From NCBI GenBank assembly GCA_014871385.1, contig CM026431.1:5183089-5247088 (forward strand): a stretch of DNA of 64,000 nucleotides, read 5' to 3'. The DNA is from Ceratodon purpureus (lineage: Eukaryota; Streptophyta; Bryopsida; Pseudoditrichales; Ditrichaceae). A program made the translations under genes and the position numbers. A model generated the notes under the pieces. The model made no database searches and was not told the origin of the DNA. It saw only the letters and a list, made by a program, of their open reading frames with translations. Within the stretch, counting starts at the first letter, position 1, and each line of letters starts with the position of its first letter. Below are positions 14,033 to 36,472 of the stretch, in pieces.

Positions 14033-14041
14033 GTCAATCAT
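14033..14041. repeat. Target-site duplication, left
   Basis: GTCAATCAT directly abuts the left terminus of the large element and is repeated exactly at 35696-35704 beside the right terminus. Nine bases is the duplication length typical of Mutator-like elements. Confidence 0.9.
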
Positions 14042-14070
14042 GCGTCGCGTTAATCACCCCCCTACAAACT
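14042..14070 (+). repeat. Left terminal inverted repeat
   Basis: Begins GCGTCGCGTTAATCACCC and continues CCCTACAAACT. The complement at the right end begins GCGTCACGTTAACAACCC. A GC-rich subterminal zone follows on both sides. Confidence 0.85.
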
Positions 14071-14728
14071 TCTATTTGAGGGCGCCGCCGCTGCCCGTGC
14101 CTTGCTGCCCGATGACGGGCCCCGCTTCTCCAAAAAGGGCCCGGGGTGACAGGCTGGGTCGAGGAGGGTTGACCCGGAGAACCTGCTGGCTGTCAGGCCG
14201 GGTCTCTTTTTGAACCCGATATTGAAATGATGGGTCCTGGGTTCAAGGTGGATGATTTTATTTGGCAAGTGCTATGGATGATTTTCTTTTTGCACTACCC
14301 AACAATAGAGAATAATCTAAGCGGATCCTTTTAACCCTCTACAGTGCGACTGTACCTGTAGTGTCACTGTAGCTGTAGTGTCAAGGGTCTAGTCAGTAGG
14401 AATGCTCTGTGCGCCTAGATTTGTGACAACCAGGTCCGTTTTTGGATACTACGTAACACTTTGTACTTCAAATGGTATTGGATATGTAGTGTAAGGAAAA
14501 ATATATAATGCCGAGAATTTCGGATCTTGGAATTTTGAATTCTCGCACTACATCTCCCTTAAAAGGGGATATATTGGTGCTGATGGACCACAAGTTCGAC
14601 CGTCTTCTATATTTCAGAAATCTTGAGATTTGTTTGAAGTGTAGAGTTTTTTCGTGGGTGACTGTTGTACTTTGTATAGGAGTGGTTGTTAGTTTTCTTG
14701 AGTTATCTAGTTGAAATACAAGGGTGAT

Positions 14729-16437
14729 ATGGCAGGTGAGGGGTCTTCAACGATTGAGTTTAGCCGTACTTGTTCTAGCGAGGATGATACACTGTGTGAT
14801 TACAACTCTATTCCGGAGAATAGAGAGTGCATGGAATCTGCTCTAGAGCTACACCAATTACAGAGGGTAGAAGGTCTAGCAGGCTTCTCCGATTACAACG
14901 AAGTGAACGTCCTAGTGAGCGCTTTACCAGATCATATGCTGAACTGTGTTGAGGTCAAGGACGAGATTGAGTGTCCTGTGGTCCTTGCTGTAAGGGAACA
15001 GAGTCCTCACGAAACCCTCTCATTTGAAGAAGTTACTAGGACAAGAGATTGTCCCCTAGTCTCAGTGGTTTTGCCAACCGGAGTTGATCAACACTCCGCA
15101 TTGATGATGGAGAGAGCGTTATCGAATGTTTCAATCAGTAAAGATATGTTTGTCCAAGCGAAGGACCTCTGCAACATAGCAAACAATCGTGCATATGAGT
15201 CTTGGATGAAGCAGAAGGAGACTGCTAGCATTAGGCTCTGGAAGGATAAGAACATTGGAGACGTTTTCTTTTATCAAGAACTTAGTCTGCTGGATATCAA
15301 TAAGAAAGAACAAGACGACGCTCCCTTCACACTTGGAGTTCAGACATCCTGGCAGAAGGCTATGCTTGTAAGATTTGGCCATGGAAGTGCTATTTCGGTG
15401 GACGCCACGTTCGGTACAAGTCACACCCGGGTGAGTGAAGTCTCCCATAACCTGAGCTGTAGTAATTTTGTAGGTGTAGTGCAATAGGTTTAGGGATTTT
15501 TATTTTGGCATGTCCCAACACCTTGATCCAAAACCAACTCATGTGAGTATACTTTGATGCAGTATCTATTGTACACCGTTTTGGTGTTTGACGAATGGCG
15601 GAATGTTATTCCGGTTGCTTATATCATTGTCTCTAGATCGAGCAAGATTGCTTTGAAATCCGTGCTACAGGCACTAAAGGACAAAGCCATATCTGTCAAG
15701 CCTGATTGGGAGCCATCTTCGATAATTGTGGACAATGCTCGAGCTGGATTGAATGTCATAGGGTAAGCTTATACATTGACTTTATTTTCTTTTGAATTTA
15801 GTTTAGGATAATTATTAATGATCACGTGTAGTGCACCTTTCTCACAACTACAATGCACTACAGGGAGTTGTGGCCGACGTCAAGGATCCTAATCTGTTTC
15901 AGGCATGTGGAGAAGGCATGGGCCAAAAATGCGGCAAATACAATACGTCGGATCGAAGACAGGACCGATATCCTGAAGGGTGTTGAAGACGTTCTGCACG
16001 GTGTAGGGTATGTTGTAGGAACTGATCCAGTGGCATGGGCTAACGAGGAGCTTGACAAGATTAAGGACGCACAGACTTCGGGAGCTAAGTTCATGGAATA
16101 TATTGATAAGTACTGGAGAAAGGACATTGGGAAGTGGAGTGCTGCAAATCAGGACTACCCTCATGCTGGCCAAAACATGAATGCTAGTATTCATTCATTC
16201 CAAGCTAGTTTGAAAAGGATTTTGATGTTGAGGAAGCAAAATGTCGCAGGACAGCGGTTGGATTGGTTAGCTGATGATCTCAAGAACAAGGTCACGGGAC
16301 AGTACTGGTATGCTAGAGCCCTAAAGGAGTATGGTTTATATCGTAATATCAAGCAAGAGTTTATGAATGGTAATCCTCAAGAAGGGGCTTATTTCGATGG
16401 GGATTTAGTTTCTCTACTGAAAAAATCCGTATTGTAG
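14729..16437 (+). CDS. Shortened MULE transposase paralogue, likely catalytically dead
   Basis: Three exons (14729-15430, 15563-15762, 15864-16437) splice into an open 491-aa frame. The start MAGEGSSTIEFS matches the start of the full paralogue at 17274, but about 650 residues that follow there are missing, including the GCM1-type zinc finger. The DDE core is recognisable: ISVDATFGTSHTR, VFDEWRN, IIVDNA and ICFRHVEKAW. At the position of the catalytic Glu the paralogue has GIESFHANLKR while this copy has SIHSFQASLKR. The frame then ends about 55 residues later, without the SWIM finger. Upstream DNA (14500-14728) also resembles that of the full gene, so promoter and gene were duplicated together. 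The frame stays open despite these losses, which would fit a retained regulator or dominant inhibitor; that is inference. Confidence 0.75.
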
Positions 16438-17273
16438 AAAATTTGTGTAGCACATGTAGTACATGAATTTAGTGAACACTACATAACAATGGCAGATGAA
16501 CACAATGATATTGAATTCTGACATGTTGTAATAAAAAAAAGCATTTGAGAACTATATATGGTGTGTACTTCCAGTCCCCTCCTTTCCAAAAAACGGGACA
16601 ATATGATAACAAAGCTCTTGATTTTCTACACATATGACCACCCCTTGCGTTGCTTACAGCAACAGAAGTGAGTGCATGCTGACCCATCTGAACATGTCTT
16701 CAATGTCGGTGAACCCTCCAACACACCAGCTATCAACACCTAGCCTTACTTAAAGACTCATGTACCTTTCGACCTCCACATGAACTCTGTGTTTGCCACA
16801 AGTACATCAAACTCAAAATATACATAGTGTGACAATACAGATGTGATGTTCTACGTACTGTTATAAATGCAAACTAAGGCCATCCTTACCTTTCTGCATT
16901 TTAACCCCACTTCTTACTACCAAAACCATGTAGTGCAAAGAAATGAACTACGAACTACAAGATCAAGACCTACGGACTGTTATGATGTACTATACAACAA
17001 CTTGTCCTACACTCCATTGTGGATGAGTAGTGCAATTACACATCCGTCTTGCCTGAAATTATGGATTTGGAAATTTTGAAATTGGCACTACAGCTTCCTT
17101 GTAGTGGAGGATAAATTGTTGGCTTCGGCCACTTATTCTATGGTCCTCCATATTTGTTATATGTTGAGGTTTGTATGCACGGTAGAGATTTGTTGGTATC
17201 GAGTGTTATAGTTCCTAGAGAACAGGTTGCTAGTTTCTTTGTTCCTTGATATGGTAGAGAATTTGGAGTGACT
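16438..17273. other. Spacer between the two transposase genes
   Basis: No open frame of interest. It carries several copies of the TGTAGTGCA-type word (for example near 16930, 17028 and 17084) and, from about 17060 to 17273, sequence related to the upstream region of the first transposase gene (TTGGAAATTTTGAA followed by CACTACA). It probably contains the promoter of the full transposase gene. Confidence 0.5.
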
Positions 17274-20200
17274 ATGGCGACAGATGGGTCCTCTGTGGTT
17301 GAGATTAGCAGTACCTGCACTGCTGAGGGTGACACATGTTCTGGTTCCCCTTATGAGAGAAACAAGGATTGCTTCATATCTTCTGTGATGCGTCGCCAGG
17401 TTCCTGATATCATTGATCTCACAAGTCCTTCCGACTATGAGAGGAAGAGTGCGCTTGGTAGAATTGCATCGAGTACGCATGACGGGAGGTCATTGCTAGC
17501 CCACAAGGTGAACTATGTCGATCTTGAGGATGACAGTTGGTGTGATTTGCTCCTGGGTCGAAGGTCGCCGAGTCCTCAGAAAAGAACGTCTCATGTTGAT
17601 ATAAGCAGTGAGAGTCATCCACCTCGAGTAGTTCTGCCACCTCGTTTCGGTCATCACTCCCCTGAGGACGTGCCACACGGTTGTAGTATGACAAGCGCCT
17701 CCGAGGCATCACTACATGGCGCCATGTATCATCTTGAGCAACATCGTACAAGTGACTCAGTCCGAACTACGAGCTCTCTTGCTTCCACGGGGTCGGAGGA
17801 TGGGAGTGTGGACTTAGCTGCAGATATGTCGTCGTGTTCTACAGAACTGTCCCTAGCAGGTTCAGCTATGTCTACGTCTCTGTCCATGAGATCTCAGCGT
17901 CCTGCAAAGCCAAGTCCAAAACCACAATATGTTGATTTTGTCTCTAGCTATTGTACATCAAGTTCATCTGTCTCTGAAAAAGAGAATTTAGAGGATTCCA
18001 GAGGTAGTCAGTACGAAGTTTCCTCGACTTCAAATCCTTCCTTCAATCTGACATGGCATGTTGTTGACGAGGGTTTAGATTCAAATTGTAAGGACAGCCA
18101 CAAGCAATTTACAAACGTGAGTAGCGATAGGAATGTCAAGTTTGCTGCGGGGAACACTGTCCCTAAGGGAAAGGCTAACAGCGGTAGAGATGATAAACCA
18201 ACAACCAAAGTGCCGTTGAAGAAGGAAAATCCGAAGGACAGCAAGCCCATGCGGCATATCTTGTCAGAGGATTGGGAGGAGGATGACCCACCATACCAAG
18301 GGCCAGAGCGAGAGGAAGAGCTAGTTAGAAGGCTTCGAGAGATGAAGCAAACTCCTCCACCTGGTCCATTCTGTAGGGAGGATCTCACTTGGGAACCTAT
18401 TCGAACCCAAAGCGGAGGCCGTTATTACATACACGAGGTCGCAGTCATCCCTTGGAAGAAACTTTCAGACTTCAGGGAGGGCGAGGGACAGGACAAATTG
18501 TATCCTTGTTGCTTCAACAAGGAGACACTCTACAAGAATAAGCCTGGGAGCTTGGTACTACCAAGGGCTAACAGTGCTGCCAAAGTTATTAAGTAAGTTC
18601 CTTCTCGTCCTTAATCTGCTCGTTTGTTATTTTCTATTGTAGTGTATCATTATATATACTATGTAGACAATACATGATTTAGGGTACCAGGTGTAGTGCA
18701 TTTATTGTATTCATTCAACTCAGGATACGCTATGTCCTTTCCATGTAGTGCATATAGATTTATCGGTATGGTATTTGATTGAACTTGAGCAGGTTCAGCT
18801 GTAATTTTGGACCTGAAGACAATTCACATATCTACATTAAGGACCTGAAGGGTCTTCTTCAAGCAGAACAGCAAAGGAGGAAGAGAAGGGTCACTACTGC
18901 AGTAGAGAAGAAGCGCAAAGGGAAGAAGGTTATCCCGGATTTCAATGTAATGTGTACTGATAGAAGTACAGGGCAGAAGAAGCCACGCATAGGTCAAAAG
19001 GCTGCTGGCATGTCCAGGAAGCGAGGATGCCAACGGCATTTCCTGGCAAAGCAGAACTACATGGACACTACGTTGTGCCAATTAGTGTACAAGGTTACTA
19101 AGCACGTAAATGTGCATGGTGAATTGTGCCACGGTGTGACGGTGGCTGGATTCAAGCACTCCATGGGGACTTCATTGTCGGAGAATATGAAGAACAAGCT
19201 TGGCAGTATGTTAGACATGGGATTGACTTCTACACAGGTTATGATCCAACACAAGGCATGGGTGATGGAGATGGCACTGACAAACGCCCCAGTGAGCAGA
19301 GATATGTTTGTCCAGGCGCACGACGTCCGGAACATAGCAAACAAGCGTGCACAAGAGACTTGGATGAAGCACAAGAAGGAAACCGTTAGTATCAGGCTTT
19401 GGAAGGACGAGAACATCAAGGAGGTATTCTTCTACCAAGAACACGGTCTATTGGATGTAAACAAGAAGGAACAGGAGGATTCCCCATTCACACTCGGATT
19501 TCAGACAGTTTGGCAGAGGACTATGCTTGTGAAATTTGGCCATCAAAGTGCTATTTCCATTGATACCACGTTTGGTACAAGTCACTCCCGGGTAAGCATT
19601 GTTTGACATTACTTGAGTACTGAAAAATGTTAGTTGATATGCATGTAGTGCAAGTAGGCTCAGTGAGTACTCAATGTGACTTAGACCTAAACCGTGGTCT
19701 GATAACAAGCTTTGTGAGCGTTTTGACTTGATGCAGTATCCATTGTATACCGTTATGGTGTTTGACGAGTGGCGGAATGGAATACCAGTTGCTTATTTCA
19801 TTATTTCGAGTTCCACCGAAAACGCATTGAAACCAGTGCTACAGGCGCTGAAGGAAACAGCTTTAGCTGTCAAACCTGATTGGGAGCCCTCGTCAGTGAT
19901 TGTGGACAATGCTCAAGCCGAGTTGAACGTCCTAGAGTAAGTGGAATTAAATTTCTTTTCAATTCAATTAGCATAAGAGGATTTGTACTTATTCAAGCAT
20001 CAATTGTACTTTATGACTCTTACAGCCATGTTGCACTACAGGGAGTTATGGCCGAGGTCCAAGATCCTACTCTGTTTCTGGCATGTTAAGAAGGCATGGG
20101 CAGAAAATGCGAAGAGCAAGATAAGTCGAATAGAGGATAGGGCGACTATGTTGAAGGATGTTGGTGACGTATTATATGGCAAGGGGTATGTTGTCGGAAC

Positions 20201-21371
20201 AGATCCTGTGGCATGGGCTAACAAAGAGCTCGACAAGATAAAGGAGAAACGCCCTTGGGGTGCCAAGTTCATGAAGTACATCGACAAGCACTGGAGAAAG
20301 AAGATTGGGATGTGGTGTGCAGGAAACCGGAATGTCCCTCACGCTGGACAGAACACAAATGCCGGAATTGAGTCTTTTCATGCTAATCTGAAGAGAATTC
20401 TCTTGTTGGAGAAGCAAAGATTTGCTGGGCGCCGGTTGGATTGGTTAGCAGATGATCTGAAGAATAAGGTCACGGGACACTACTGGTATGCGAGAGCCTT
20501 GAAAGAGTTCGGATTCATTCGCAATTTCTCACAGGAGTTTCTCATTGCCAATGCAATCCTCCTTGCATATGGGATCCCCGACTCGTATGTTTACTTGAAT
20601 CCGGAGGGGGAGGATATTGCGCTGGTAGTTTCCGTTGCTAATTATCCCAAAGTTTGGACAGTATACGGAACCGACACTGAGTGGGCACAATGTGACTGTT
20701 TTATTGGTCAACAGAACACTATGTGCAAGCATGTTATGAAGGTTTTTCTTATGAAGCATCCTGATATTGATGAAGGACTGATTCTTAGGGAAGCCGGGAC
20801 AAGGTGTGGGATAGAGAGGACGATTCCGATGGTGGACGCGTTTGGATCGAAAAGGGACGACTTTGAGGGTGCCGAGGAGGACTTCTCTGGCCTCCCTAAG
20901 GATGAAAAGTACAAGGATGCATGTGTGCCAGATAGAGGCTGCACAGGGAAGCCTGAGAACAACGCAGGACTTGGAACAGAGTCCAATCCGATTGTTCTAC
21001 GGGATGTATCTCATCCACAGGAGTACAACTCTAAAGATATTATGGAGAAATGCTTTGGTACTGAAGAAAATCCCATTGACCTTAACCCCGTTCCCCTGCC
21101 ACAGAATCAAAAAACTAAAGAAGACAGCCCCGTGGAGTTGATAAAGGATCTCCTTGGCACAGCAGGTAAGCACACTGAGATTGGCCACCACCTGGTTGCT
21201 GATTTGAAGAAGATACGTGGGAAGTACAGGAAGATGATAGCACGTGGAATTGCATGCAACGAGCTGAAGGACACTACCCCGAAATTTCCCTTGCGGGAAG
21301 GTGATTGGTCATTGAAAAGGAAACTAGGTAGACTAGAAGTACCTAGGGCCGGTAAGCGTTGCAAAAGTTAG
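17274..21371 (+). CDS. Full-length MULE transposase (GCM1-type zinc finger, DDE core, SWIM)
   Basis: Exons 17274-18592, 18793-19591, 19737-19936 and 20042-21371 join in phase to 1215 aa. A long Ser-rich N-terminal region (about residues 1-430) is followed by a WRKY/GCM1-like zinc-binding stretch (KRGCQRHF, CQLVYKVTKHVN, GELCHG), the DDE core (DTTFGTSHSR; VFDEWRNGIPVAY; VIVDNA; LCFWHVKKAW; NAGIESFHANLKR, whose Glu is the likely third catalytic residue), and a SWIM finger CDCFIGQQNTMCKH. A basic C-terminal tail follows. The protein would bind the element ends and cut and paste it. An ATG six bases upstream (17268) is also possible. DNA identity to the shortened paralogue in the core is roughly three quarters by eye, so the duplication is old. 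Confidence 0.85.
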
Positions 21372-21769
21372 AAGGTAGACCTCAATGACTATAAGCTAGA
21401 CTCGTGTAGTGCAATACAATGTAGTGCGAATGATATATTATACTATATAAAACTACATGGACTTCACTATGACCGAGACATTCAGTCGAGTGAAGCACTA
21501 TTCTGGTCTTCCATGCTCAGACGGTCACATGTTTAATTTCAATAGATTAGTTATGTAATCCATGTTCTCAAAATAAGATTGTGACGGTAATGTATTACGT
21601 GTAGTGCATATATAAGTGTATTTGGCGAAGAAACCATGACATGTAGTGGTGCTTTTTAATTAGGCGATGGGTAACGCTGGCGCACGATCACGATGAATTT
21701 GAATTCTGTCGCAGTCCACATAGGAACTACATATTTAAGCTATATATATATATATATATTTATCCGTAC
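21372..21769. other. Tail-to-tail spacer with TA microsatellite
   Basis: About 400 bp between the stop of the full transposase (plus) and the stop of the first ULP gene (minus). It contains four TGTAGTGC/TGTAGTGG words (about 21405, 21420, 21600, 21643) and a (TA)n run at 21741-21759. It should hold the poly(A) signals of both genes. Confidence 0.6.
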
Positions 21770-24700
21770 TTAGTCATCTATTGGAAAGACGCTTTCTGTA
21801 ATATGTCCTTTTCTAGCGGCTCTATGGTTGGACTTTTGACGTACAAGACCTACTTCCTTGACTACGAGATGTTCTCTGCTTGAATCCATTGATGCTCCTC
21901 TGTTGACCTCGGCAGTAATCCGGCACGGCATTCCGTCCACAGCACCTGAGACCATCGCCTTCCTAACTGCGTTCTTTAACTTCTGCTTCATGTCCAACAC
22001 ATCCCGAATGTCAAATACATCGGACATCTGCATCAACATAATGCCATGATGTAAGTATAAGTACACGGTGTGCCACATAAGATACCTTTATGTCACACAG
22101 AGATACCCAAGAATGCGGTAGCCACATACTCTAACAGTGCTACGATTGAATATAAAATCCAAAGGGGATTGATGCCCAAACCTCTGCTGTCCAGTCGATG
22201 TCGTTTTCCTTTCCCAGAAACGCCATGTATGTGATAACAAAGCACATGACGTAGTATCCACACGACCATCCATCGCTAAGTTTGGGGCAACGAACGTGAG
22301 TCCAGGCTTTTGCGTCGGTACAAGTATTCCATCTGGGCGATCCTTCCGACTCACCTATTGCCATACACCACAACTTGCCTAAACAGTCATGTAGTTTACG
22401 ACCTCCATGGAAGGTGTTGGAATCTATGGCACCTGAGTCGAACTTGAAGAATCTAGAGGTCGACAATATTGCTAAGCTCCAGTGAGTACTGTCGACAATG
22501 GGAACTATGACTGTCGTACCCTTCATCCGTCTAAATCCTGATTTCTTACTATAAAACCTTTGTAGTGCGTCAATTGAGTCATCTTCTTTGATGAGCGTAC
22601 AAAGGCTAGTTGCTATTAGAGAATTGCACAATAAAACCTCGTTAGGAAGGTATGACTGAAACCAAATACAAAAGAAATCCATGAGAGGCGTAGTGAGCAG
22701 TCCCTCTTGGGAATCTAGGGCTTTCATGTCCGGAATAGGGCGTAAAATCGTACTGCCCGAATCAAAAAGGAACTCCAGATGTCCCCTTGTGGTGTCGCCA
22801 TGCGCCAGTCTTATACGTTCCATCATAAGATGGTAGGCACTGCAATACAGAACGAACAGCGTATCTAAGTGTACCAACAACATGTAGTGTAAAATAATAA
22901 TATGTAGTGCAGAGTAATAAATGGATTTTAAAGAAAAAGTGCACAACTACGGGGCTCTACAGCCAGAGGAATATTACTTGGATCTTTAAGTGAACATGTA
23001 TAGAGCAGTGACATATACTACCTACTGTTTACAGTAGGTGAATCCATGGGGGACATGAACAGTGCTACTGCTGTGCTCCCAGGTGGGGTCTCCTCCTGGG
23101 AAGTTATTGATGTCTGCTCCTCACAGGCTTCATCGGATGAAACCAATTTCAATGAACGAATAGGGGAGAGCATTGAACGCACACGACACGGACCTAACCT
23201 AAAATCAACATGTGTTGGAGTCTTCCTAAACCAACTTGATCCCGCCCGCATGATTGGCGGTGATGGGTTCCTTATGTGTAAGGAAAGAAGTTCTCTCTCC
23301 CTCAAGGCCCGGTCCTCATCTAGATGCGTCGTATTAGGTATGGTGGAAAGTGTACTTGCGGCTACCGTTGTAACCATTTCTAAGGACATAGAATGTTGTT
23401 GAACTACAGTCTTTCCACTTGGGTCCACAACTTCCAGCGGCATGACATTGGCTGTAAGGATGGTTTGAGCGGTAATTGTTTCGTTATGTCCAGGGTAACC
23501 CAGCTCTCTGAAAGTCCGTTGGAGCTCCTTCTCACGAAGCTCCATAAACTTTCGTACAACGCCATTTACGGACTCTCTCAAATCCTCAGGGACTGGTCCT
23601 TGATTGTCCAACCCCAACATTGACCACCCGATGTCCACATCCTCGCGTATACATAACGACCTTGACATCACCTGTATTGCAAGAGCAATCACATTTAGTG
23701 GCTATTTACATATACGATGGAGAATTACAGCGTTAATGATTGCTATGCAAATGTTGAAATAATGACCTTACTGAGTGTTTTTACCTCGTCGCAATGAAGG
23801 CGCAAAGTTGTAGGATCAGGTGGTCCACGAACCCACCACATGGCCGCAAGCTCGGCAGAATTTCTTCCCGTTCTGTGTAGGTCCACTATTGCTCGGCGTG
23901 CAACACGGTTGAGAAACTGCTCTATCACATGCAGTACGTCGTCCTGGTTCCATCCTTCGAAGCCCATTAGTCCCAGCATGTCACCCCAGCATCGACGAGG
24001 TGGAGCGCAAATTCCTCCAAAAATGCATGGGAAATATGCCCAGCCAATGTCAACAACATCTTGGGCACATGCGGAAAGGCATTTTGATTCTACCTCGTCC
24101 TTTGCTATAGCAAGTATGTTTTTTCTTGTCATGCCTGTAACTGGATGTGAAATCGGCGAGCGTCGTCCAAGTGAGATGCGACCATATAACTTGAGGGCAC
24201 GAACAATATGGGGACACTCCAGTTCCAGCGTCATTGGCTCGAGCTTCACATCCGACTGTAGTGCACTGAGTATACAGTCTAACTCTTCCTGTGTATGAGA
24301 CCAAGGACGTGGAGGCATTATTGGAGATCCTTCCTTGCATAAAATTCGGAACATGGGGGACCATCCCCAATCCCTGTCTTCCAAACGCATTTCTTGCTCG
24401 CAGTCATATAATCGGAGTTGGCCTAGAATATGAGACTTCCGCAAATCCTGTAGTGCAATATCTGCATTGAGTCGTTTGGAGACGTACAAAGCCTTGTCCT
24501 TCAGGTACTTCAGATAGTGCTCCAGCTTGGTAAGTTCGTTGGTTCTCCCGTCGTGATTTACCAACTCAATATAGGGATTCCATGGCTTCACAGACATCAT
24601 GACGAAATTCACTTGTTCTTTATGTAGTGCGTCACGATCCCCCAAAACCTGCAATACAGAGAGCGTCGCAAATCAGGCATTTCCGCCTGCACTACACGAG

Positions 24701-26972
24701 TATGTTATGAATAAAGCTAAACAAAACCACAGCAAGTGGGGTTCTACACGCGCGTACCTGTGATTCTTTCCATTGTACCCACGGTCCTATAGAAGCATGT
24801 ATGCGTTCTCCAAGTTCATCTCGTGATTCTAAAATTTGAAGCTCCGCCATGCATTCTTCATGGTTGTGTAGGAGTCTGCGATCGATGATAGTGCTAGCCG
24901 GTGAATCCTGGATCAGGTGATACAGTCCGGGACTACTCTGTACCTGAGGAGGACGGCCAATATTAGGGTACGTGTTCTCCACTGTTAGTGAGGCTGCATA
25001 CCGCTGGGCCTTTTCCAGTACTTCTTCTCGCGTACAGTCAACAGAAAACGTATAAGACGATATGGGCGCATCTTCATGCACTACATTAAAGTGGACGGCT
25101 CCCATCTGCGACCCAATACGTGGGGAGGTATGAAACCGGGATGTATCCTCATGATCTGCTGAAGGCAGATTAGTTGTGTTGGGATTGTCTTGCATCCGTG
25201 AGAGCACCTCCTCCTCAGCTACTACGTCCTTCTTCCTCTTACGTGTGCCTGCTAGCGAATTACTCTTCTTCTTCACAGGACCTTTTGGATGTCCTCTGAA
25301 ATGTGCAGGAGCAACTAGCGACCCTTTGCGATCTCGTTTGGAATACTTCACCCGGAAAACCGTATCCACTGTATCAGAATATTCTCCGAGGGTCTGCACT
25401 ACAGTATGGCTATCCTTCGTGAACCTGTCATGCATTACCGTGGTCCTCTCCCTCTCAACCATCTCCTTTTGTGCGCATTCTTTCTTCTGGTAAAGCTTTG
25501 TCACATGTGGCTGTTGCGTAGTGCAAAGTCCCTCTTTCGGTACCTTCTCGTTGGGCAAGACTACATCCTTACTTGTCCCTCGACTGGTTTCCTTAAGAGA
25601 CTCCCTAGTCTTTTTGGACTTTGGCTGCACTACACGAGGTACCTGTACCCTCGGGTTCCAGGGGCGGTGTCCCTCTTCCTCTGGGAACTTCAATCCTCTT
25701 TCCTGTAGGATACCTTTGAGCACGTGCTGTTCACTCTGAGTAAATGTTGGATACATTTTCAACACTCCAGACCCAACTTCTCTCCACTTATCACACTGGT
25801 CCTTATAACGATGATACGAAAGTGCATTCTTGTCGCTAAAGTCTTCATGACAGTAGTTGCACCAATAGAAATAGCGCTTCTCCTGCCCAGGGTTCTCGTA
25901 GTAGTGATAACGGCAGGTGTAGTGCGCCTCAACTACGAGATCCTTGTATTCCTGCTCAGTATATAGACATGCGCACGGCACTCTACCTTGCTTTAACTCT
26001 GCTCTATAGACCCTCTCACCTCCAACCTCATACCCCTGCAACGTAAAGCAAAGGCCTTCAGAGACCGTAACAACAACTTCTGGTACAATCACAAGTGCAG
26101 AATACAACGAAGTGCCTCATGATATTCTACTGACTATGACGTACCTCTTGCAAACCTTGCACTCCATTTAGCAATAGCGTCTTCCACGTTGCAACTCCAA
26201 GCCCGTCTATAATCCGCTTATCCTCGTTCACAATCAACTTATCATCCTCAGGGAATTGAATTCTAGGACCTGTCACACCCACACCTAGAAAAGATATGGA
26301 GCCTGTACTCATGGCTGGGGGCAAATGTGGTCTACTGTCAGCTGTAGCTCCGCTACAGCTCACACCCTGTTTGGGACGTCCCGGCACATGTTTTTTGAAG
26401 ACAAGATCTGTATCTGTAGATGCATCGTCGTCTTCTTCTACACTGTTTCGCAGCCCCAACAACGGTTCAATAGCTTCGTCAATACTAGTTTCTCCTACCA
26501 CGACCTGTTGAGACCTTGCCCTCGTAACTCTGCGGTTGTTATCTATAAAACCCGAAAAAAAGAAAACAACAAACAAAAAACCCCGGAATCAGTAGAGTGT
26601 TGTTCTATAGAAAAACGAAATTGAAAAAACCTGATAGAGTATGAGGACATCACTACGACTCATAGAATTCTATCACGTGTTTCTGCAACTATATTCCGGT
26701 CTCCACCTCACTATTTGTATGAGAATCCTCAGCATTCACCCCTGACCCTAATCCAATAGCAGAAGGACTTCATATGCAAGTTATGGCTACAAATCTCAAT
26801 ACCCAACACTTATATCTACACTTATACTGTGTTTCTTCCCAAAACGGACACTGAAAATGCCTCACCAGAACAACCCACTTGCAAAAAAACAAGCTACACT
26901 CAAAACGAGATACAAATGCATACTCATCCCTAACCCCTGCTCTCTGAACTTGTAGGACTCACCTGATTCCAT
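21770..26972 (-). CDS. Transposon-borne zinc-knuckle/Ulp1 (C48) protease fusion, copy A
   Basis: Seven exons: 26972-26963, 26542-26145, 26035-24758, 24648-23785, 23671-23022, 22839-22182 and 22027-21770. All phases agree and give 1371 aa from MESDNNRR. Order: a short conserved block (GVGVTGP, then LNG); a Cys/His motif CNYCHEDFSDKNALSYHR ending DQC; a basic variable region; a conserved region with ECPHIVRALKLYGR and CAQDVVDIGWAYFPC; GWSMLGLDNQGP; then a C-terminal Ulp1-like protease with STHWSLAI (His), FFKFDSG (Asp) and GWSCGYYVMC (Cys). The usual oxyanion Gln six residues before Cys is Leu here. Ulp1/C48 proteases cleave SUMO or similar proteins; the target here is unknown. The function for the element may be anti-silencing or maturation, by analogy only. 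Confidence 0.8.
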
Positions 26973-29655
26973 CTCGTCGTCTTACTCTCTACCAAGAACT
27001 CTGCCACAACCATCGCCGTGCCTCTCACCCTTCCCAATCGATGAAACGCTAGAAATTACACCCATGATTGTAGGATCGCACCAAGATTCCGCAGGTTCCA
27101 ACACCTCCCCCAACATGCCATCGTCCCTACAAAATGAAGACCCACATCCTCCTTGCAAAAGTTTCGACTCATGTCTACAATGAGGAGACCACGTCCTTTA
27201 TAGCTAAGAAGGCCTTGCTACAGAACACGGGAGGAGCAGCACACGTGTGCCTGCGGACCATATGAAGTGGACTCTAGCCGAGACAGGCGGTGGCCGCGGC
27301 TCTAAAACTGAACGATCACCCTAAGCATTACCATGCTAGAAATTATTTATCCAGCATGGTGTAACTTCGAAGTGGATGGCTCTTTAAAAAATTAGAAAAC
27401 TCAAAAATTAAATATTGAATAAACGTATTAAGATACTTACTAATTGAAATATTATTTAAGTAATTCATGTTTTTAACCATGTTATAATTTATTTTTCTTA
27501 ATACAAATAAGACCTGTTGTAAGCAATACATTTCCTAATCCTTCTACCCATTTCTTCGCGTCATTTAAAGTTTCCCCCTTACCTAGGAGAAATAACGCAC
27601 TATCCTAATACTTTATTTTTAGTTATTGTAAATTTATAAGGCATATGCTAATCCTTCAATGAATCTTGCCTTGTTCGACCACGTAATTTTAATTATGTTT
27701 CCTTGTCTTCTCCTCTATTAATTTGCATCTCTTCTATTTTTTTCTTAATTTAGTTTCTTACTCTAATTCAATGCTTCACATTGTTCTTATTTTTTTTACT
27801 TTCATTCCTTCTTTACTTCTTATGAAGATCACACATTGCATTTTTTTTTATTTTAAATATATTCACTTTGTTTATTCAGCCTTTTGTTTTTTGTGGAAGC
27901 CAAAACCTTATCTTATATTTCATAATATTCCTTGATTTACATATATAATCTATTTAATTAATCAATTTTCTATATATGTCTTTGTATTTTCCATGATATG
28001 CATCTCGGAAATTTATATTATTATTGCAATTATTTACATGTCTAAATCATATAATTTTATATTTTACCATTTGATGTTTTTTATGATTATCTCTATTGCA
28101 AATGTTTTTTTTTTTTTTTTTTTTTTTTTTTTTCTTCAATTTTTTTGCGATTTTCACTTTGCACATTGACCTTTTTTCCTTTATCTCTTAATTTAAATCG
28201 TTTAATTTCATATTTCAAATTTTCCTTTATCTCTTAATTTAAATCGTTTAATTTCATATTTCAAATTTTTTTATTTTATTTTCCAAATCTCACTACATCT
28301 ACATTTTTTATTTTTATTCATCCTTGTTTCGTTATTCCTTACGTTCCAATCTCAGCTTACTTACTTATTACTTTTTTCCATTCGGTGATATTCTCACCTT
28401 GTGCATCCATCCTTCAATCTTCTTAATTACGTTCCACTTATCTATATACGGTGTATGTATTTGATGTTTTTATTATTTATTTAATATGTTATCATCCTCA
28501 TATTTTGAATTTTTGGGTTTTTATTTACTTCTCGTAATTTATTATTCTCTTTAATCCCTAAACCTTATTCGTTATGGCATTAAACATTTTATCTTTAAAT
28601 AATATATATATTTTGTTTTAATCTTTAAATTGTGACCAACCAATTATTTTTATTTTTATTTTTAAATATTGTGTTTATTTTTTCTATTATCTAATTCTCT
28701 TCTTTTAGTTTACCTTAGTTTCTTTCGATCAATTTTTATCATGCCTAGCTTTCTTCATTTGTTTTATTTGTTTTTGAGCATGTATGTTTCTCTAGTTTAA
28801 TAAGTTTTCTTTATTCATGTATATTGTATTTTTTTATTGCATTAACATAGAGTCTTTATATTTTAAATGTATTCACTAAAATTTCACATCTGAACATTAT
28901 ATTTTATTTTCTCTGTTTCAATTTCAATCTACTATCTACAAGCCTTTTATTTCTAAATAATAATTTTATTTGATTCATTTATTTTCCTTCTTCTATTATT
29001 ATCGTTCATGATATTCATTGTTTTACACATTTTATTTTATTTTTAATTTTACTCCACAGTGGTTTAGAAACTATTTTCTTGTATTTCTTTCTTCTTCTTC
29101 TAATGCGTTTGATATATTTCTCATTTCAATGTTTATTTTTTAATTCCATTTTTTTTTAATAAAAAAATCTTAATATTGTAATTCTGTATATCTAAAATCA
29201 TTCACTTATTACTTCCTCTTACTCGATATTCATCCATTCAAAATCCACTGTCGTTTAATCCTTTTATAATTGACTTCCTTCTGCAATACACATCCTTCCC
29301 TTTTATATCCTCATGTATTTCCTTAACACCTTTTTCCCATTTCTTATTTGTTTTCCATAGTGGTTGTTTGTTTGCTTCAAAATCTGTTACGTCAGTATCC
29401 GTATAGTTTGTTTAATTATTTCACTTTTTTTTATTTGTAAAATTTGAATGTTCTCACTCAATATACTGGTTGCGGAAAAATAACTAAATAATTTAAAAGC
29501 CACAATCAAAATGTACAGTTAAAAAGTTACACAAAAATTTACCCCTCGAAATTTACATCTGACCCTTGAAAATGGCGGCATTTCAAAATTTCTTGCATCT
29601 ATACACTACATAAATTATCACTCCTACGATGATTGTACACTTCATCAACAACCTC
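26973..29655. other. Leader of ULP copy A and T-rich spacer inside the transposon
   Basis: Bases 26973-27330 should hold the promoter and leader of the minus-strand copy A gene. From about 27340 to 29500 the plus strand is markedly T-rich with few G and no gene. It includes a T run of about 29 (28105-28133). After 29600 the TGTAGTGC-type words return (29605, 29671). The T-rich block lacks those words, unlike most of the element. Confidence 0.6.
28175..28266 (+). repeat. Tandem duplication, 46-bp unit
   Basis: Two adjacent, essentially identical copies of a 46-bp unit containing CTTTATCTCTTAATTTAAAT and then TTTAATTTCATATTTC, within the T-rich spacer. Confidence 0.85.
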
Positions 29656-32600
29656 CTAAAATCCAACAGATACACTACATCTGCGTCGACCTGCCTTTCC
29701 GCTACTCAATGCAAAGACTATAGCTTCCTTCAATCCCTTCCGTAGTACAAAAATCTCGTTGTGCTCGAAACAGTCCGACATCTGCAAACATAATCGAAAC
29801 ATTAATATTATGTTGTATATCAAACGAAGAGACCCTAATCCAGAGTTGTGCTCTTCGTAAACTGACAAATATCCAAAGCACTACACTCAGCACAGCACAA
29901 TACTCGATATACACTACATGACTACATTCACTACAACACTACAATCATTCAAGTAGTCCATAGAGCAGGTTACTTACATCACCCTCCCAATCCCTCTCGT
30001 TGGCGGTGGTTTGCTTCAAGTACGAACTCAACATCACAATATAGCACCCTACATAGAATCGACATGTCCAATCGTCTGGTTGCTGTGGACATTTGACATG
30101 GACCCATGACTGAATAGAGGACGCCCGCTTCCACTGAGGAGTACCCGGTCCATGTCCATTGGCCATGCACCACAACTTTGCCATTGCCACGTGGAGACAT
30201 TGTGGCCCATGAAAGTTTGGATTTGTGTGATAACCTGAATCAAACTTGTAGAAGCCCTCGTCTGATATCACCGCCAAACTCCAGTGCCTGCAATCAAATA
30301 CTGGTATGAACAGTATCTTGTCCTGAAAATTAGCAATGTAAGGGTTGTCCTCATAAAATCCACGTGGTGCGTGTTGTGAGACAGATCGATTTGTAAGGAT
30401 TCTTAGTGACACTGCAAAATCGGTCTTGCAGATAAGTACGCCAGGAGGTGTATCACCCTCAACCCACTTAGCAAACCAATCCATCAATGGAGGACTCAAT
30501 CCCATCCCAGATAAATCCAGTATCTCCATGTCTCCATCCTCGGTCAGCCTGATCTTCTCATCGCCAAAACAGAAGTCAAAGTATCGTCCTCTCACACGGC
30601 CATCTTCTAGAGAGATTTGGTCCATTGGGAGATTGAGTAAGCTGCAATAATAGAAACCCTTTATTTATACAATGCGCATGTTCAGATCCAGAAAAATGCC
30701 ACAGGGAGCACGTAGCTACTTGACCTATACCGCACTACAGATTTCCTTAGCACTACTTCTTTGGACCAAAAGACAATTGAAGCAGTAAACACTATGCTAC
30801 TCCTCATGAAGTAACAGACATAGGAATTGTAGGGCTACACTACCTACTAGGTGTGTGGACCTCTTCGGTAGCAGGTCCATGCACTACATCAGCAGCACTT
30901 GCAGCCTCCTTGTTCGCAGGTTCCTCCTCTCTTCTGAGAACATTTTGGCTTGCCAATGCTGCCCCTTGAATGTCTCCTTCAACCATTGCAGAGGCAACGT
31001 CTCCAAATGAACCCTCGTCTCTATGATCAAAGTCCAGTACCCGCATGGGTGTATGACATGTACCTGAGCCTTGACCAAGCATAACTTGAAGGTGATACGG
31101 AGTCTTGCGGTGCCATTGTGTACAACCATCCTCCATAACCACCGGCCTTGGCATCTTTATGTGCTCGCAAAGGAGACGTCTCTCCCTGTCCTCTGTACCA
31201 ACATCTGGAGAGATCTCAATTTGAGACCAATCTAACTGTTGTGTAAACTGAGAGCCCACAATCTGGGACATCTGAGGAATCTCCAGATGATCCAAGTTTA
31301 CAGGACTGCTCATCGACCTTGGCTCCGAAGCTCCTCCATCAGAATATCCAAGAAGCTTGAATGTTATGTCTTGTTCCTTGCAGTGCAACTCCGTAAGTAC
31401 GTCGACGACCTTCTCTACACATGGTCTTAGATTCTCCGGCGGTGGCCCTTGATTCTCCAACCCAAGCATAGACCAACCCAAGTCGACGTTTTCTCGCAAG
31501 ATAAACACCCTAGAAAACACCTGAAACCTCCCACCCAATACAATATTCAAGTAAGCCTCACATTCACCCTAAACTGGGCTGCACTACAGCTCTCTCATAC
31601 TAAGGTAGATGTGCATTCTAGGCATTAAAAGCACTTACAAGACTCAATGCAAGAGCACGTCCAAAAAAAAACGCCAAATTCGAATGTAGCTCACCTCCTC
31701 ACACTGCAGTCGTAGTGCACAGACATCCTCTGGTGGAGGGGTGTACCACATTGCAGCCACATCGGATCGATGCTCGTCAATCCGATACAGATCTACAAGG
31801 ACACGACGAGCTATCTTTCGAAGAAAAAGTTCGACCTTCTCCAGCACAGGATCCTGGCTCCACCCTTCGAAACCCATCAATGCAACCATGTCGGAGCATG
31901 ACATAGACCTTGGTTCTGTAGTTTTCCCGAATGTGCATGGAAAATAAGCAAATCCAATGTCAACCACGTCTTGGGCACATATGGACAATCGCCGTGACTC
32001 CACTACATTTTCAGCAATCTCCAGGAGCTTTGGCCTGGTTACACCCTTCACTGGGTGTGCTAGTGGTACACCGCGTCCCTCTATCATTCTAGTGTATAGT
32101 TTTAACGCACGCACTACATGTGGGCATTCGGACTCAAGACTAGACCTGTTAGTCCCTACCTCCTCCCCTAAAACCCGCATGATCTCCTGTAGCTCTTCCT
32201 CAGTATGCTTCCAAGGTCGTTGTGGTCCGGTACTTGGGAGGTCCCTGATAAGGGCCTGATAGATAGGCGACCACGACCAAAGCCTCTCCTCTACTGCATA
32301 GGCTTCCTCCTCTGTCTCCAATTCCTTCAACGCTTTTTGTATGTGCGAGTCTTGTGCTTCTTGTAATGCACCATCTACATATACCTGGTACTCCCGAAGC
32401 TGCTGAGTGTACTCCAGATACAACTTAAGCTTCTTTAGTTCGTTGTCTCTGCCCATCTTGTCTTCCATCGCACGATATGGGTTCCAACAGCTTGTAGCAC
32501 AGTGTACAAAAGACTGCATTTGCTCTTCATCGGGAAAGGTGGCCATGTCATCCTTCAGAGCACGGGGAACGGTCTCACTGCAAATACATAAGTCAACCAT

Positions 32601-34317
32601 CACAAATTGTGCTACACTACATCAACTCAGTATAGTTGTGCACTACATTAACTTAATGTAGCTTCATTAGTTAGGAAGTTAGCGATTTACTTACCACTCT
32701 TGCTAGGCGCCATTGTACCCAGTGACCTAGCGCTGAGATTATCTTCTCTAATAGTTTCCCATTACGTTCCATGCTGGTAAGGTGCTCCATGCATTGGATA
32801 GGCTGCATCAACAAGTCCTTCTCCACTACACTTATAGGTCCTTCACTGAGTAGGTAGTATAGGCCCGGCATAGGCACAGACTCTGGGGCATCACGAAGAT
32901 CCCTAACATCATTGATAGTAAGGAGGTCTGCTTCACGCTGAGCCTCTCGAAGTACCTCATCGCGTCTCTTACTTGATATGTGCGATACTGGTGAGCAAGA
33001 GGTGGTGGGTAAATGGAGACCGTTATCTGCCATGGCCTCTTGAACCTCGCCTTGGTCCTCTGTCATTACAACGTTGTCCTCCATGTCTTCCTCACCTTCA
33101 TCATAGATCAGATTTCTAGGTTTCACACAGAAATGTTGATGGTCGTCCCCTGTTCCTTCAGAATGTGCAACATTCAGTATGCACTGTGCCACTGCTTCTC
33201 TAGGACTATCAAACTCTTTGTCTGACTCCCCTAAGTCGATAGCGTTCCCTGAAATCCCCGCACTACCTGAATCCACCCTTGTCTTCTTCCTACTCCTGGT
33301 TTCACGTACCGACTGCAGCCGCCTCATACTCTTTCTCCTTGTCTCGAGCCCGTCTCTTTCGCTACCATCCCTTGTACTCTGCGACCCTGTCCTCGACCTT
33401 CTCCTCTTATTCCCGCTACCTCCTCCCACATCGGTTGTAGTGTCCGCCGAGGATTTGTGAGCAAAGTTTGGAAGGTCGGGAGAACTTACCACAGTATTCT
33501 TCATCCTTCTTGGACGCATCGAAGGTGCATGTAGTGCATCGGATCTGCGGCTTTTGGTGTGGCTCTTGTCCCCTCTGCTACCTGTAACCCATGTTCCCCT
33601 TTCACCCCCTCTACTCCTCGAAGTTGACCCTAAACCATCTCCATGTGCTCCAGTTGGATTTGCCGCCCCCTCTTGTCGTGGAGCCCAAGGCTGGGACCCT
33701 GACTTAGCTGGGAACTTGAGCCCGTACTCAGCTAGTATGGTCTCAGCAGCCTTGGTATCGCTAGGTTTGAATGTTGGATACATCTTCAAAATCCCTCCCT
33801 TACCATTCTTCATCCTCCTCCATTCTATGCACTGATTTCTGTGGCGGTGATAGGACAGTGCATTCTTGTCGGAGAAGTCTTCCTTGCAGTATAGACACCA
33901 GTACCATCTTCTTCTATCCTTCCCCTCGATAACATGGTAGACGTGATATCTGCAGTTGTAATGGGCTTCTACTACCAGGTCTTTGTACTCCTGCTCCGTA
34001 AACAGACATACACATGGCTCACGGCCCTGAGTGAGAGTGCACCGATACAGATTCTCACCTTTCACCTTTGCCCCATGTACTAAACCCACTGGCCCATTCA
34101 ACACTATGTCCCACCACTTTTCAAATCCTAACTCTGCAATAAGCCTGAAATCCTTGTTCACCCTAATGCTACCAAGCTCTCTGCCCTGTTCATACTCAGG
34201 ACCAGTTATTCCAATACCATACCCCTCGATTTGTGTATCAGAAATTGTTCCCACTCTGTGCCTCTCCGTGTTGCCCTGTCCATCGCTGATCATTTCTTCG
34301 TCCCCCCCACCCTCCAT
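29656..34317 (-). CDS. Transposon-borne zinc-knuckle/Ulp1 (C48) protease fusion, copy B
   Basis: Paralogue of the 21770-26972 gene. Exons 34317-32695, 32573-31695, 31520-30844, 30641-29978 and 29781-29656 join to 1322 aa. The acceptor at 32573 follows GCAGTGAG and is less certain than the others. Shared blocks in the same order: GIGITGP; CLYCKEDFSDKNALSYHR with NQC; ECPHVVRALKLYTR; CAQDVVDIGFAYFPC; GWSMLGLENQGP; then the protease with CRHWSLAV, FYKFDSG and QQPDDWTCRFYV. Here the oxyanion Gln is kept, but the Gly after the catalytic Cys is Arg. The intron that splits copy A at 26145/26035 is absent. A further open stretch to 34555 could extend the N-terminus. The two copies are much diverged in the middle, so they duplicated long ago or were selected for different jobs. 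Confidence 0.77.
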
Positions 34318-34555
34318 TGTCCCTCTGACCTCGTACCTGTAGAAATATTCCCTTCGAATCTTGCTCCCAGTTACTACTACCCTGCTCCCTGCGCCAGATT
34401 GTTCCTACTAAGTGTCCCCAGCTTGTATCACTTCCACATATCCATTCCACAATGTATTCCCGATTAGCTATCTTCTTCGAATTATCAACCTTGACAGCAT
34501 ACCTGATATCCGAAATTCTTTGAGATGCTCCAGTACCAACCCCAACATCTTCCAT

Positions 34556-35665
34556 CCCCTACCATGATCGCAACACAACTCTGTCGCCACTTCTTCGGGT
34601 TGACATCCAGCATTAATCAGACATCTACGAACTCTGGAATTCGCAATCCTTACATTTTGCACGTCTGCCAGAAAAAGCTTTCTAAATGTAAGTGCATATT
34701 AAAAAACAAAACAAGACAATTTAGCAAAACATTCCGTTTCTTCAGCACCTGATGTTCCCCCCAACAAACCCTAAATCGATTTTTAGCCATTCTCCTTGCA
34801 CAGAACATGCAACCCTAAACCAGAAAATCCGTGGATACTAAAAGCAATAAAAAGAGATAGCGTGCCAGGGCTCTTTTGTGCTCATATCAGGAAACCCCGA
34901 TCCATTTCGAGCTAGCTAGAAAACAAAAAACTGAAATCAGGCTGTCACTTAGCAATTTCTAGCTTACCTCTCGCATGTCTCTACCTTCAATTCGCAATCC
35001 ACTCCAGGTACTCATGCCCTACCCATTCTTCATTCAGCTGTCATACACCGAAACAAACGTCCCTTAGAGAATGCTTGCTAACCCCAGAAATAGGAAACCC
35101 TAAACCTACATGAACAAGGTGAAGGCCATGCAATAAATGGTAAACAAATGGCAAGAAAGGCAGCAAAATGAAATTAGGAATTGGCGAGGAAACGAACCCA
35201 TGCTGATATGGCGATTGATCACCTCCCATCCATGCTGCTACGTCTCCTTCATTCCATGGTGCCGCTTGATCACCCCCCCATCTCCAAACTAGAACCCGAA
35301 ACCCCACGCCCCACTACCTGAGTGCAGACAGGATCTTTGTTGCCGTTGGTGCACAGTAGTCGCACCACAGTCGACGACGCAGTACAGAGAGAGATGCCTT
35401 CCCCAAACGCAAGACAGCTCCAAATGCAAGACATAGGTTTGATGAATGTAGGACGTAACCCTAAACTGAGATCCGCCGTCATCCCTAAACCTAAACCGGG
35501 TTTCAATGGACGGGGACGGGTCTGCCACCCAGGACCCGGTCTGGGCGGTGGGACCGGGACGGGTGAGCCACTGGCGCGGGCCCGGGCTGACCCCATGACC
35601 CGGCAGGGATGGCCCCGCCGCCTTTTCACGGGCTGCCCCTAATTCCCTCACAGGTCCAATTTTTG
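34556..35665. other. Right subterminal region of the transposon
   Basis: Promoter/leader side of ULP copy B, with telomere-like words (ACCCTAAAC near 34745 and 35098-35105, AACCCTAAACTG near 35458) and a GC-rich zone at 35480-35640. Open frames over the GC-rich zone lack motifs and are taken as chance. Confidence 0.55.
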
Positions 35666-35695
35666 GGGTTCGTAGGGGGGTTGTTAACGTGACGC
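35666..35695 (-). repeat. Right terminal inverted repeat
   Basis: Read on the minus strand it starts GCGTCACGTTAACAACCC and then CCCCTACGAACC, matching the left terminus with a few changes. It is followed on the plus strand immediately by the second GTCAATCAT. Confidence 0.85.
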
Positions 35696-35704
35696 GTCAA
35701 TCAT
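35696..35704. repeat. Target-site duplication, right
   Basis: GTCAATCAT, identical to 14033-14041. Confidence 0.9.
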
Positions 35705-35734: not shown

Positions 35735-36472
35735 GGGGGGTAAGCACAATAAAGTGGACCACAAAGTGCAACATGTGACCACTAACAAGTGAATATGAAG
35801 TGTGCTGTTTTTAAAGCTCAAAGCTGATTTTGAGCATTTTGGTGTAGTTTTTGAGCATTTTAGTCACTTTTTAGGGTGTCGCAAGGTATCTTACACACAT
35901 CTTCATAACAGAAACATCCTGAATTGAAACTAAATTTGACCACTAGTTATAAATCATGAAAATGAACTTTTCCAAAGTCTTGATTTCTTCATCTGGTGCC
36001 CTCTGTTGTCTTTAGAGGATGTTTTTTTCAATTTAAAAAACAATGTTCGGTGAAAAAAAAGTGACAAAAATAACCGCGGAAGTGACCCTCTTAAATAACA
36101 TCCTTGCGGTACTTTTGGAACGCTAAACCAATTAATGAGTATATGAATTGACTATTTTAGAATAGCTCTTAAATATATAGAGGGCACCGCAAAATTAAAA
36201 GTGATTTTGGACAAAACCCTAAACCGTTATGTTCACTTTTCCAAATGACTGCATTCACTTTGCTTGGATTTAAAGCCTTTATACAATAACTTTAAAGTGT
36301 CTACTTTGCACGAAACTTTTCCAAGTTGTAGAAAAACAAGTTAAGAATCCATATTAGCAAAAAAAATTGACTTCAATTACATCTTTCAGTCACTTTTGTG
36401 CAATTTTTGCAAGAGGGCTGAAACTGACAAATAGTTAAGCACTTTTTTGGTCCTCTTTACCATGCTTACATC
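35735..36472 (-). mobile_element. 736-bp family element, copy 3 (reverse orientation)
   Basis: Starts GGGGGGTAAGCACAATAAAG on the plus strand and carries the family's conserved interior (GTGCTGTTTTTAAAGCTC; CTTTTCCAAAGTCTTGATTT) in reverse. The far end is eroded (GGTCCTCTTTACCATGCTTA). It lies only about 30 bp outside the large transposon's target duplication. Confidence 0.75.

Follow-up and report, generated by a model that had tools for sequence, protein, structure and literature searches.

A multi-copy family of giant compound Mutator-like elements with an enriched TGTAGTG word in the moss Ceratodon purpureus

A Mutator-like element (MULE) of 21.65 kb, located at positions 14042–35695 of a 64,000-nucleotide stretch of Ceratodon purpureus DNA (the window), is one of the copies that make up a family of giant compound MULEs, in which the unit between the 28 bp terminal inverted repeats (TIRs) moves as a whole. 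It can be regarded as nearly certain that the element is a mobile compound MULE. The enrichment of the word TGTAGTG in the element, its above-background retention in relatives and its 25 bp arrays in two of them are new observations. This pattern parallels the targets of the VANC/KIU anti-silencing system of Arabidopsis VANDAL elements, an analogy from which we infer its function. The best overall explanation, in which we place moderate confidence, is that of a mobile compound MULE whose word-binding protein would counter silencing.

The borders given in the initial annotation were borne out (Table 1). The exact 9 bp sequence GTCAATCAT is found on either side, the left and right TIRs are the same at 24 of 28 positions and the element ends are GCGTC. 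The TIR pattern was matched exactly twice in the window, with a chance expectation of 0.00, and a nested element marked by internal TIRs was rejected, as the best internal match reached just 19 of 28 positions. The right flank adjoins a dispersed repeat, other copies of which show no empty site because the repeat begins ∼40 bp beyond the duplication; the candidate empty site in the window was accordingly rejected.

Table 1. Positions of the element, its genes and its other features in the window
Feature	Position	Exons	Strand	Remarks
Left target-site duplication, GTCAATCAT	14033..14041		no strand	from sequence
Left TIR	14042..14069		+	identical to right TIR at 24/28 positions
TGTAGTG, 49 copies (34 non-coding, 15 coding)	14357..33536		no strand	spread throughout element
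T1, MULE-transposase-like gene, shortened	14729..16437	14729-15430, 15563-15762, 15864-16437	+	491 aa, PF10551
Relic of third ULP gene	16575..16907		-	33% identity over 113 aa to U1 catalytic region
T2, MULE transposase	17274..21371	17274-18592, 18793-19591, 19737-19936, 20042-21371	+	1215 aa, PF10551 E=2.7e-17
U1, C-terminal Ulp1-like protease gene	22140..26312	26312-26145, 26035-24758, 24648-23785, 23671-23022, 22839-22140	-	1219 aa
AT-rich spacer	27300..29600		no strand	14-37% G+C per 100 bases
U2, second Ulp1-like protease gene	29945..34317	34317-32695, 32552-31695, 31520-30844, 30641-29945	-	1284 aa
Right TIR	35668..35695		-	TIR pattern match
Right target-site duplication, GTCAATCAT	35696..35704		no strand	from sequence

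The initial annotation had proposed a search of the host genome with the termini, and had named the lack of any other locus carrying them, together with an orthologous site holding the interior but not the ends, as grounds for abandoning its interpretation. Such loci were found: the search of 362 Mb returned 36 termini with no more than three mismatches (control, 0). Of 15 elements with paired ends, the window element among them, 14 are flanked by exact duplications (9 bp in 13 and 10 bp in one), while in the last the duplication is unclear and lies in a poly-C tract. Furthermore, four further full copies are collinear with the window element across the whole interior at 97.8–99.5% identity, and a fifth has a divergent U2; each of the five possesses both ends and its own exact duplication. 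The duplications and the collinear copies therefore indicate that the 21.65 kb unit moves whole, in support of the earlier view of a single transposing unit.

MULEs are recognized as a superfamily by the PF10551 domain, a target duplication of 8–11 bp, a DDE triad with C..H between the second D and the E, and a SWIM-type finger. In addition to the 9–10 bp duplications of the paired elements, PF10551 was detected above its cut-off of 27.6 bits in both T2 (63.4 bits) and T1 (49.9 bits, E = 4.4e-13). By reading, the D, D, C..H and E residues and the SWIM-like CxC..CxH residues are all present in T2, the Pfam SWIM score of which was 14.2, below the cut-off of 19.6. The position of the third-block Glu was assigned from the usual anatomy of MULEs and from its occurrence in the T2 of all of the copies compared. 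Judged by homology, T2 would be the catalytic transposase and would work on the TIRs. A protein search for relatives of T2 yielded 6095 candidates, none of which reached E ≤ 0.001, and no relatives were returned from plasmid and viral collections. The best PDB match of T2 by sequence, a Tet4 variant (E = 0.024), was judged to be a chance match.

The initial annotation had described two transposase genes, both apparently intact. The four large frames do remain open after splicing and T2 is full; however, T1 is shortened, lacking the central part of T2 and the SWIM region, and the third DDE block contains His in T1 in place of the presumed catalytic Glu of T2. T1 therefore probably does not function as a transposase, and would be unable to cut because the Glu and the SWIM region have been lost. 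It may be in decay, or may act as a partner or repressor without catalytic activity, and the chances that it is merely a decaying passenger duplicate without function are evenly balanced. Decay is favoured by the loss of SWIM, by the His, which is found in the window and in all five full copies, by the sister T1 copies, which are broken although they have kept the Glu, and by the singletons within the family (35 nonsynonymous, 17 synonymous and one stop). On the other hand, the T1 frame is open in the window and, among the five full copies, in four, the variants shared within the family comprise no nonsynonymous and four synonymous changes, and the long-term dN/dS of the T1/T2 core, in which the T2 branch is included, is ∼0.2 (dN 0.17–0.19, dS 0.86–1.06).

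The earlier assignment of two large ULP-protease genes holds in part. U1 and U2 are open genes of ∼1200 amino acids and are homologous, matching in the C-terminal Ulp1-like region at 35% over 225 amino acids (E = 9e-47), but the scores for the Pfam C48 family in the window are weak. The last exon of U2 (E = 4.6e-4, 20.5 bits) and the full spliced U2 protein (E = 0.0089, 16.3 bits) both fall below the cut-off of 20.7, which the U2 of three other copies passes with 27.4 bits; the last exon of U1 gave E = 0.19, and the full spliced U1 protein had no C48 match in Pfam. In an alignment of U2 with yeast Ulp1 (PDB entry 1euv), the H, Q and C correspond but the Asp does not, and U1 and U2 have in common the H, the C and the Asp of KFDSG, but not the Q. 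Both have a zinc-finger-like N-terminus (zf-C2H2_4, E = 0.033 and 0.12, both below the Pfam cut-off), and the start codon of U1 is uncertain, its frame being open to 26588. AlphaFold gave a mean pLDDT of 37 for the middle domain, which is unusable, and Sey1_3HB as the identity of this domain (Pfam E = 0.056) was judged to be a chance match. The pN/pS of family singletons is 0.52 for U1 and 0.74 for U2, a weak sign of current constraint; the dS between U1 and U2 is saturated.

A relic of a third ULP gene, which had been missed in the initial annotation, has stops in all three minus frames and is also present in the sister copies. As this broken relic lies beside T1, the element is taken to be a compound of duplicated modules, and the gene plan (T1 with the ULP relic, T2 with U1, and U2 as an additional ULP gene) reads as a duplicated convergent transposase–ULP module. 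The same plan is found in two sister copies that are ∼75% identical and internally deleted, and is older than the split from this sister subfamily, which is ∼25% apart in DNA. The AT-rich spacer contains a perfect 46 bp tandem duplication at 28174–28265. All four gene frames are open in one of the seven other copies examined, and in five of the seven both U1 and U2 contain a stop, a frameshift or divergent sequence. Since T2, U1 and U2 are open in the window element, its autonomy is plausible.

TGTAGTG, a word picked after inspection of the window sequence, occurs 49 times in the element versus six times in the 42.3 kb of flanks. The non-coding copies (34) compare with an expectation of 1.8 and a maximum of six in 200 simulations, and the coding copies (15) with an expectation of 2.5 and a maximum of eight in 1000 codon shuffles. 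Among the 21 one-letter variants, TGTATTG alone is clearly raised (nine copies). The word is kept exactly at nine of 19, 12 of 19 and five of eight sites in three relatives, of which the first two are from one subfamily and none is independent of the window element, against a background retention of 14.0, 15.5 and 14.6% when every non-coding 7-mer is counted (p = 5e-4, 3e-6 and 2.5e-3, respectively). In two relatives it lies within tandem arrays of 25 bp. Some window copies are in short tandem duplications (14349–14383, 22882–22920 and 29912–29947), while most are dispersed. A genome scan for close TGTAGTG pairs gave 101 matches, yet the reversed control gave 357.

From this pattern and by analogy, the 49 words may be sites bound by a protein that the element itself encodes, with U1 and/or U2 the likeliest candidates, and on balance we consider binding by such a protein to be rather likely. 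The protein would coat the DNA of its own family and strip host silencing marks, as VANC/KIU do for VANDAL; that the system of TGTAGTG, U1 and U2 is anti-silencing is put forward tentatively, at somewhat less than an even chance. More doubtful still is the fullest version, in which a private word of 7–9 letters, TGTAGTG[C/T]A, would be read by ULP-tailed zinc-finger proteins for anti-silencing, either convergently or since before the split of mosses from flowering plants, with a catalytically disabled transposase retained for regulation. Against a VANC-like role, the exons of U1 and U2 are enriched in TGTAGTG as well, while the signal of VANC21 has been reported from non-coding regions, and the majority of the window copies are not in tandem. 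Also counting against the model are the outcome of the genome scan for close pairs, the zinc-finger and full-protein C48 results, which miss the Pfam cut-offs, and the damaged or divergent state of both U1 and U2 in five of the seven other copies.

Two other roles for the word were considered, each of which is unlikely and to a similar degree. The words could be binding sites of the transposase, dispersed or subterminal, for synapsis. Four of them lie 315–504 bp from the left end, of which sister copy A retains three and sister copy B two; however, the word is also found in introns, intergenic spaces and U1/U2 exons distant from the ends, and even the rightmost copy, at 33530, is more than 2 kb away from the right end. 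Alternatively, the words could be transcript-level signals of the element genes, such as poly(A) elements, of which UGUA is one, or splicing elements. Most of the non-coding words are in sense orientation (27 of 34, p = 8e-4), a bias that a signal at the RNA level would produce as well, and in T2 and U2 several fall within introns or 3' regions. This account is opposed by the exonic words, which are seven sense and eight antisense yet outnumber those in every one of the 1000 codon shuffles, and by words upstream of T1. Least probable of all, the notion that the two ends are unrelated insertions merely flanking an old region, for which nothing speaks except the nested insertions in some other family copies, is refuted by the five other full copies, each of which has both ends and an exact duplication of its own; four of these copies are near-identical throughout.

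A literature search of titles and abstract openings found none naming such a moss element. A DNA transposon called Lanisha has reportedly been named by workers on Ceratodon. Membership of Lanisha was rejected for the present element, which has 9 bp duplications, GCGTC ends and a MULE domain. In the excerpted text of PMC12730594, the Lanisha elements (Maumus, McDaniel and Carey 2020, cited therein) are EnSpm-like, and their group mostly has CA..TG ends and 2–5 bp duplications.

VANDAL elements with VANC/KIU (Kaonashi; Arabidopsis and other eudicots) are, like the moss element, MULEs with a transposase and large further genes. According to excerpts of the cited papers, they also have 9 bp duplications (PMC6446971), some have a ULP domain in the further gene, with Ulp1 carried by KIU-type VANC genes (PMC13317346), and a short word is multiplied through their non-coding parts, partly via tandem repeats (PMC5735166, PMC13317346). 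VANC21 is described there as binding YAGTATTAY in introns, intergenic regions and terminal non-coding regions, the targets having grown by tandem repeats (PMC5735166). The moss element differs in its 28 bp TIRs, its 21.65 kb length and its moss host, in having two transposase-type and two ULP genes rather than vanA/B/C, and in its word, which is another one and exonic as well. In Pfam, neither U1 nor U2, as exon pieces or as full spliced proteins, matched DUF1985 or DUF287, the domains named for VANC proteins. ULP-bearing MULEs of grapevine, melon and rice (TIR, Jittery-like) similarly combine a mudrA-type transposase with ULP, sometimes in opposite orientation, but have one ULP-like region per element in the part of PMC2528002 consulted, whereas the moss element has two separate ULP genes of ∼1200 amino acids, a third relic and a disabled second transposase. 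MuDR, Jittery, Hop and the remaining groups in Dupeyron et al. 2019 share with the moss element the MULE domain, 9 bp duplications and, by reading of T2, the DDE residues and a SWIM-like finger, and its TIR length is within the 14–500 bp reported for them; in contrast, the table of that paper gives one or two ORFs wherever a number is stated and contains no bryophyte host (PMC6446971).

With this family, a giant MULE that has several copies and exactly defined borders is available in a tractable moss, one that possesses U/V sex chromosomes. A named DNA word and candidate proteins make it testable whether MULEs also use sequence-specific anti-silencing in plants other than flowering plants. If the moss MULE does have such a system, the capture of Ulp1, which excerpts of PMC13317346 place at the monocot–eudicot separation for non-TIR MULEs, would be far older than this separation or would be convergent. 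The finding also bears on the purpose of the ULP domain that recurs in plant transposons.

The borders proposed in the initial annotation for the 21.65-kb Mutator-like element (MULE) were borne out: the exact 9-bp duplication GTCAATCAT lies on either side of it, and its two 28-bp termini agree at 24 of 28 positions. A joint terminus pattern found no third match in the window at up to three mismatches (chance expectation 0.00). The genome search that had been suggested with these ends likewise recovered other copies with duplications of their own, yielding 36 termini at up to three mismatches in 362.5 Mb, of which the window occupies C11:5183089-5247088, against 0 in the control; an additional left end, at C6:55423609 (copies are named by chromosome and position), was found through alignment. 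Thirty ends were paired into 15 elements, including the one in the window, with exact duplications of 9 bp in 13 and of 10 bp in one, while in the last the duplication is obscured by a poly-C tract; seven of the 36 listed ends are unpaired. End-to-end spans range from 9.4 to 48.9 kb, for which nested insertions are partly responsible in the copies read. Three relatives of 31–41 kb, known from their ends only, have termini that differ slightly and 9-bp duplications that are exact; they are either nested insertions or even larger native elements. Chromosome C6 carries 21 of the 36 termini and 30% of the genome, about twice its share (p = 5e-4, paired ends not being independent). At 110,524,308 bases, C6 is a probable sex chromosome; according to PMC9273592, the Ceratodon purpureus U and V measure 110.5 and 112.2 Mb. 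Separately, 93 PF10551 matches were obtained among 150 scored of 384 candidates, and the genome has many MULE transposase exons outside this family.

The full sequence was compared for five further copies (C6:475875, C6:59686778, C7:2008323, C7:5283590 and C6:55423609) and partial sequence for C6:31353726 and C10:236693, together with two short copies of a sister subfamily about 75% alike, the remaining five elements being represented by their ends and 800 bases of one. Four of these full copies align collinearly with the window element at 97.8–99.5% per aligned piece, with a 1.9-kb insert close to the end of intron 1 of the transposase gene T2 in C7:5283590 and one of about 24 kb near window position 21972 in C6:59686778. 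The fifth, C6:55423609, matches at 98.5% over 14042–22439 and 94.3% over 22440–28414; exons of its Ulp1-like protease gene U2 are only 70–84% alike, yet the last kilobase is 92% alike. The same divergent U2 type occurs in C6:31353726 (95.1% over 16421–26429, 84.2% over 26430–28406; U2 exons 69–82%, last kilobase 93%). Subfamilies have thus swapped modules. In the C10 element, compared over 251000–274700, the window's 28439–35695 is present at 99% or more, interrupted by an insert of about 15.5 kb. Among these seven copies, all four frames are open in one, another has only U2 in the part compared, with one stop, and five, including the two with divergent U2, have two or more genes interrupted by stops or frameshifts.

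The gene models combine open frames with GT-AG sites that correspond from one paralogue to another, so that their splicing is predicted. The initial annotation had claimed two transposase genes with open frames; T2 (1215 amino acids) upholds this with a MULE domain far above the cut-off, whereas T1 (491 amino acids), a 70% match to T2 over 346 codons, lacks the central region of T2 and everything past the core, including SWIM. Furthermore, the third catalytic block reads NAGIESFH in T2 and NASIHSFQ in T1. The window T1 and that of each of the five full copies have the His, and HSF is also present in the broken T1 of C6:31353726. Two sister copies retain the Glu in broken T1 genes, and the loss is therefore probably derived and would have spread as the family multiplied. 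The dN/dS between T1 and T2 is about 0.2, a value that includes the T2 branch, and T1 singletons within the family (35 nonsynonymous, 17 synonymous and one stop) are no proof of current selection. The window T2 has a private Thr adjoining the first Asp; in the other copies compared, this residue is Ala.

The protease genes U1 and U2 are 38.7% identical over 1177 codons and share a C2HC-finger-like block, recognized by reading (Pfam zf-C2H2_4 E = 0.033 and 0.12, below the cut-off), a central domain about 280 residues long (46% identity) that matched no known family, and an Ulp1-like domain at the C terminus. The evidence for Ulp1 comes from the U2 scores (E = 4.6e-4 for the last exon, 0.0089 for the full protein, and above the domain cut-off in U2 of three other copies) and from H, Q and C aligning with yeast Ulp1; U1 is presumed Ulp1-like by homology to U2. 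The gene order, T1> <ULP relic, T2> <U1, <U2, reads as a duplicated convergent transposase–ULP module, and the duplication would predate the subfamily split because the broken third ULP fragment beside T1 recurs in sister copies.

Features in the window, in relatives and elsewhere in the genome (window coordinates unless a locus is named)
Feature	Position	Strand	Remark
Element	14042-35695		
Third ULP fragment	16575-16907	minus	broken
Tandem duplications with TGTAGTG	14349-14383, 22882-22920, 29912-29947		short
Tandem arrays of TGTAGTGCA	L055 362-440; L056 179-270		25-bp unit; relatives
Relatives of 31-41 kb	C6:26529328-26560475, C5:10274104-10314681, C13:14611863-14648774		
Perfect 46-bp tandem duplication	28174-28265		inside AT-rich spacer; 29-T run nearby
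Dispersed repeat right of element	35743-36263		
Further copies of this repeat	60613-61139, 9365-9723, 8909-9231	minus	
Short piece of this repeat	56012-56047		
POT/NPF-type transporter exons	42088-43456		peptide or nitrate; PTR2
HEAT-repeat frame	54716-55231		E = 2e-4, just below cut-off; presumably resembles Hsp70-binding protein
F-box protein frame	56705-58018		weak KIB1-4 beta-propeller match

A k-mer comparison of the element with the rest of the window ranked the heptamer TGTAGTG first, with 49 occurrences against six (2.26 versus 0.14 per kb); eight stretches of other DNA, mostly inserts in copies, contain six in 45.8 kb (0.13 per kb). The 9.0 kb of non-coding element DNA holds 34 where 1.8 are expected, and the overlapping GCACTAC and CACTACA top all 7-mers under a second-order model. 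The word is extended mainly by C or T and then A. The exact word is kept, since only TGTATTG (nine) is clearly raised among the 21 one-letter variants. Coding occurrences, nearly all in U1 and U2, exceed all 1000 codon shuffles and use both strands. In three aligned relatives, the first two from one subfamily, 9/19, 12/19 and 5/8 words are retained versus 14–16% of all non-coding 7-mers, and two of the three comparisons show four gains each. Arrays of 3.2 and 3.7 units carrying the word stand in two relatives where the T2 intron 1 match stops. When the genome was scanned for two words lying close together, there were 101 matches, some in family copies, against 357 in the reversed control, and so the scan provides no evidence of genome-wide enrichment.

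The word may be a binding site for the transposase, or it may be a transcript signal. The likeliest use, as proposed here, would be anti-silencing by U1 and U2, since the two components that such a system needs, large proteins with a ULP tail and a word peculiar to the family, occur together in the element. According to PMC5735166 and PMC10398659, VANC21 of the Arabidopsis element VANDAL21 binds YAGTATTAY in introns, between genes and in terminal non-coding DNA, and the number of its targets expanded through tandem repeats; KIU genes are described in PMC13317346 as VANC with a Ulp1 domain in some VANDALs. Unlike these, U1 and U2 matched no VANC domain, which a member of the VANDAL/KIU line would be expected to carry, in a domain search that included the full proteins; that the moss element works as VANDAL and KIU do is a hypothesis.
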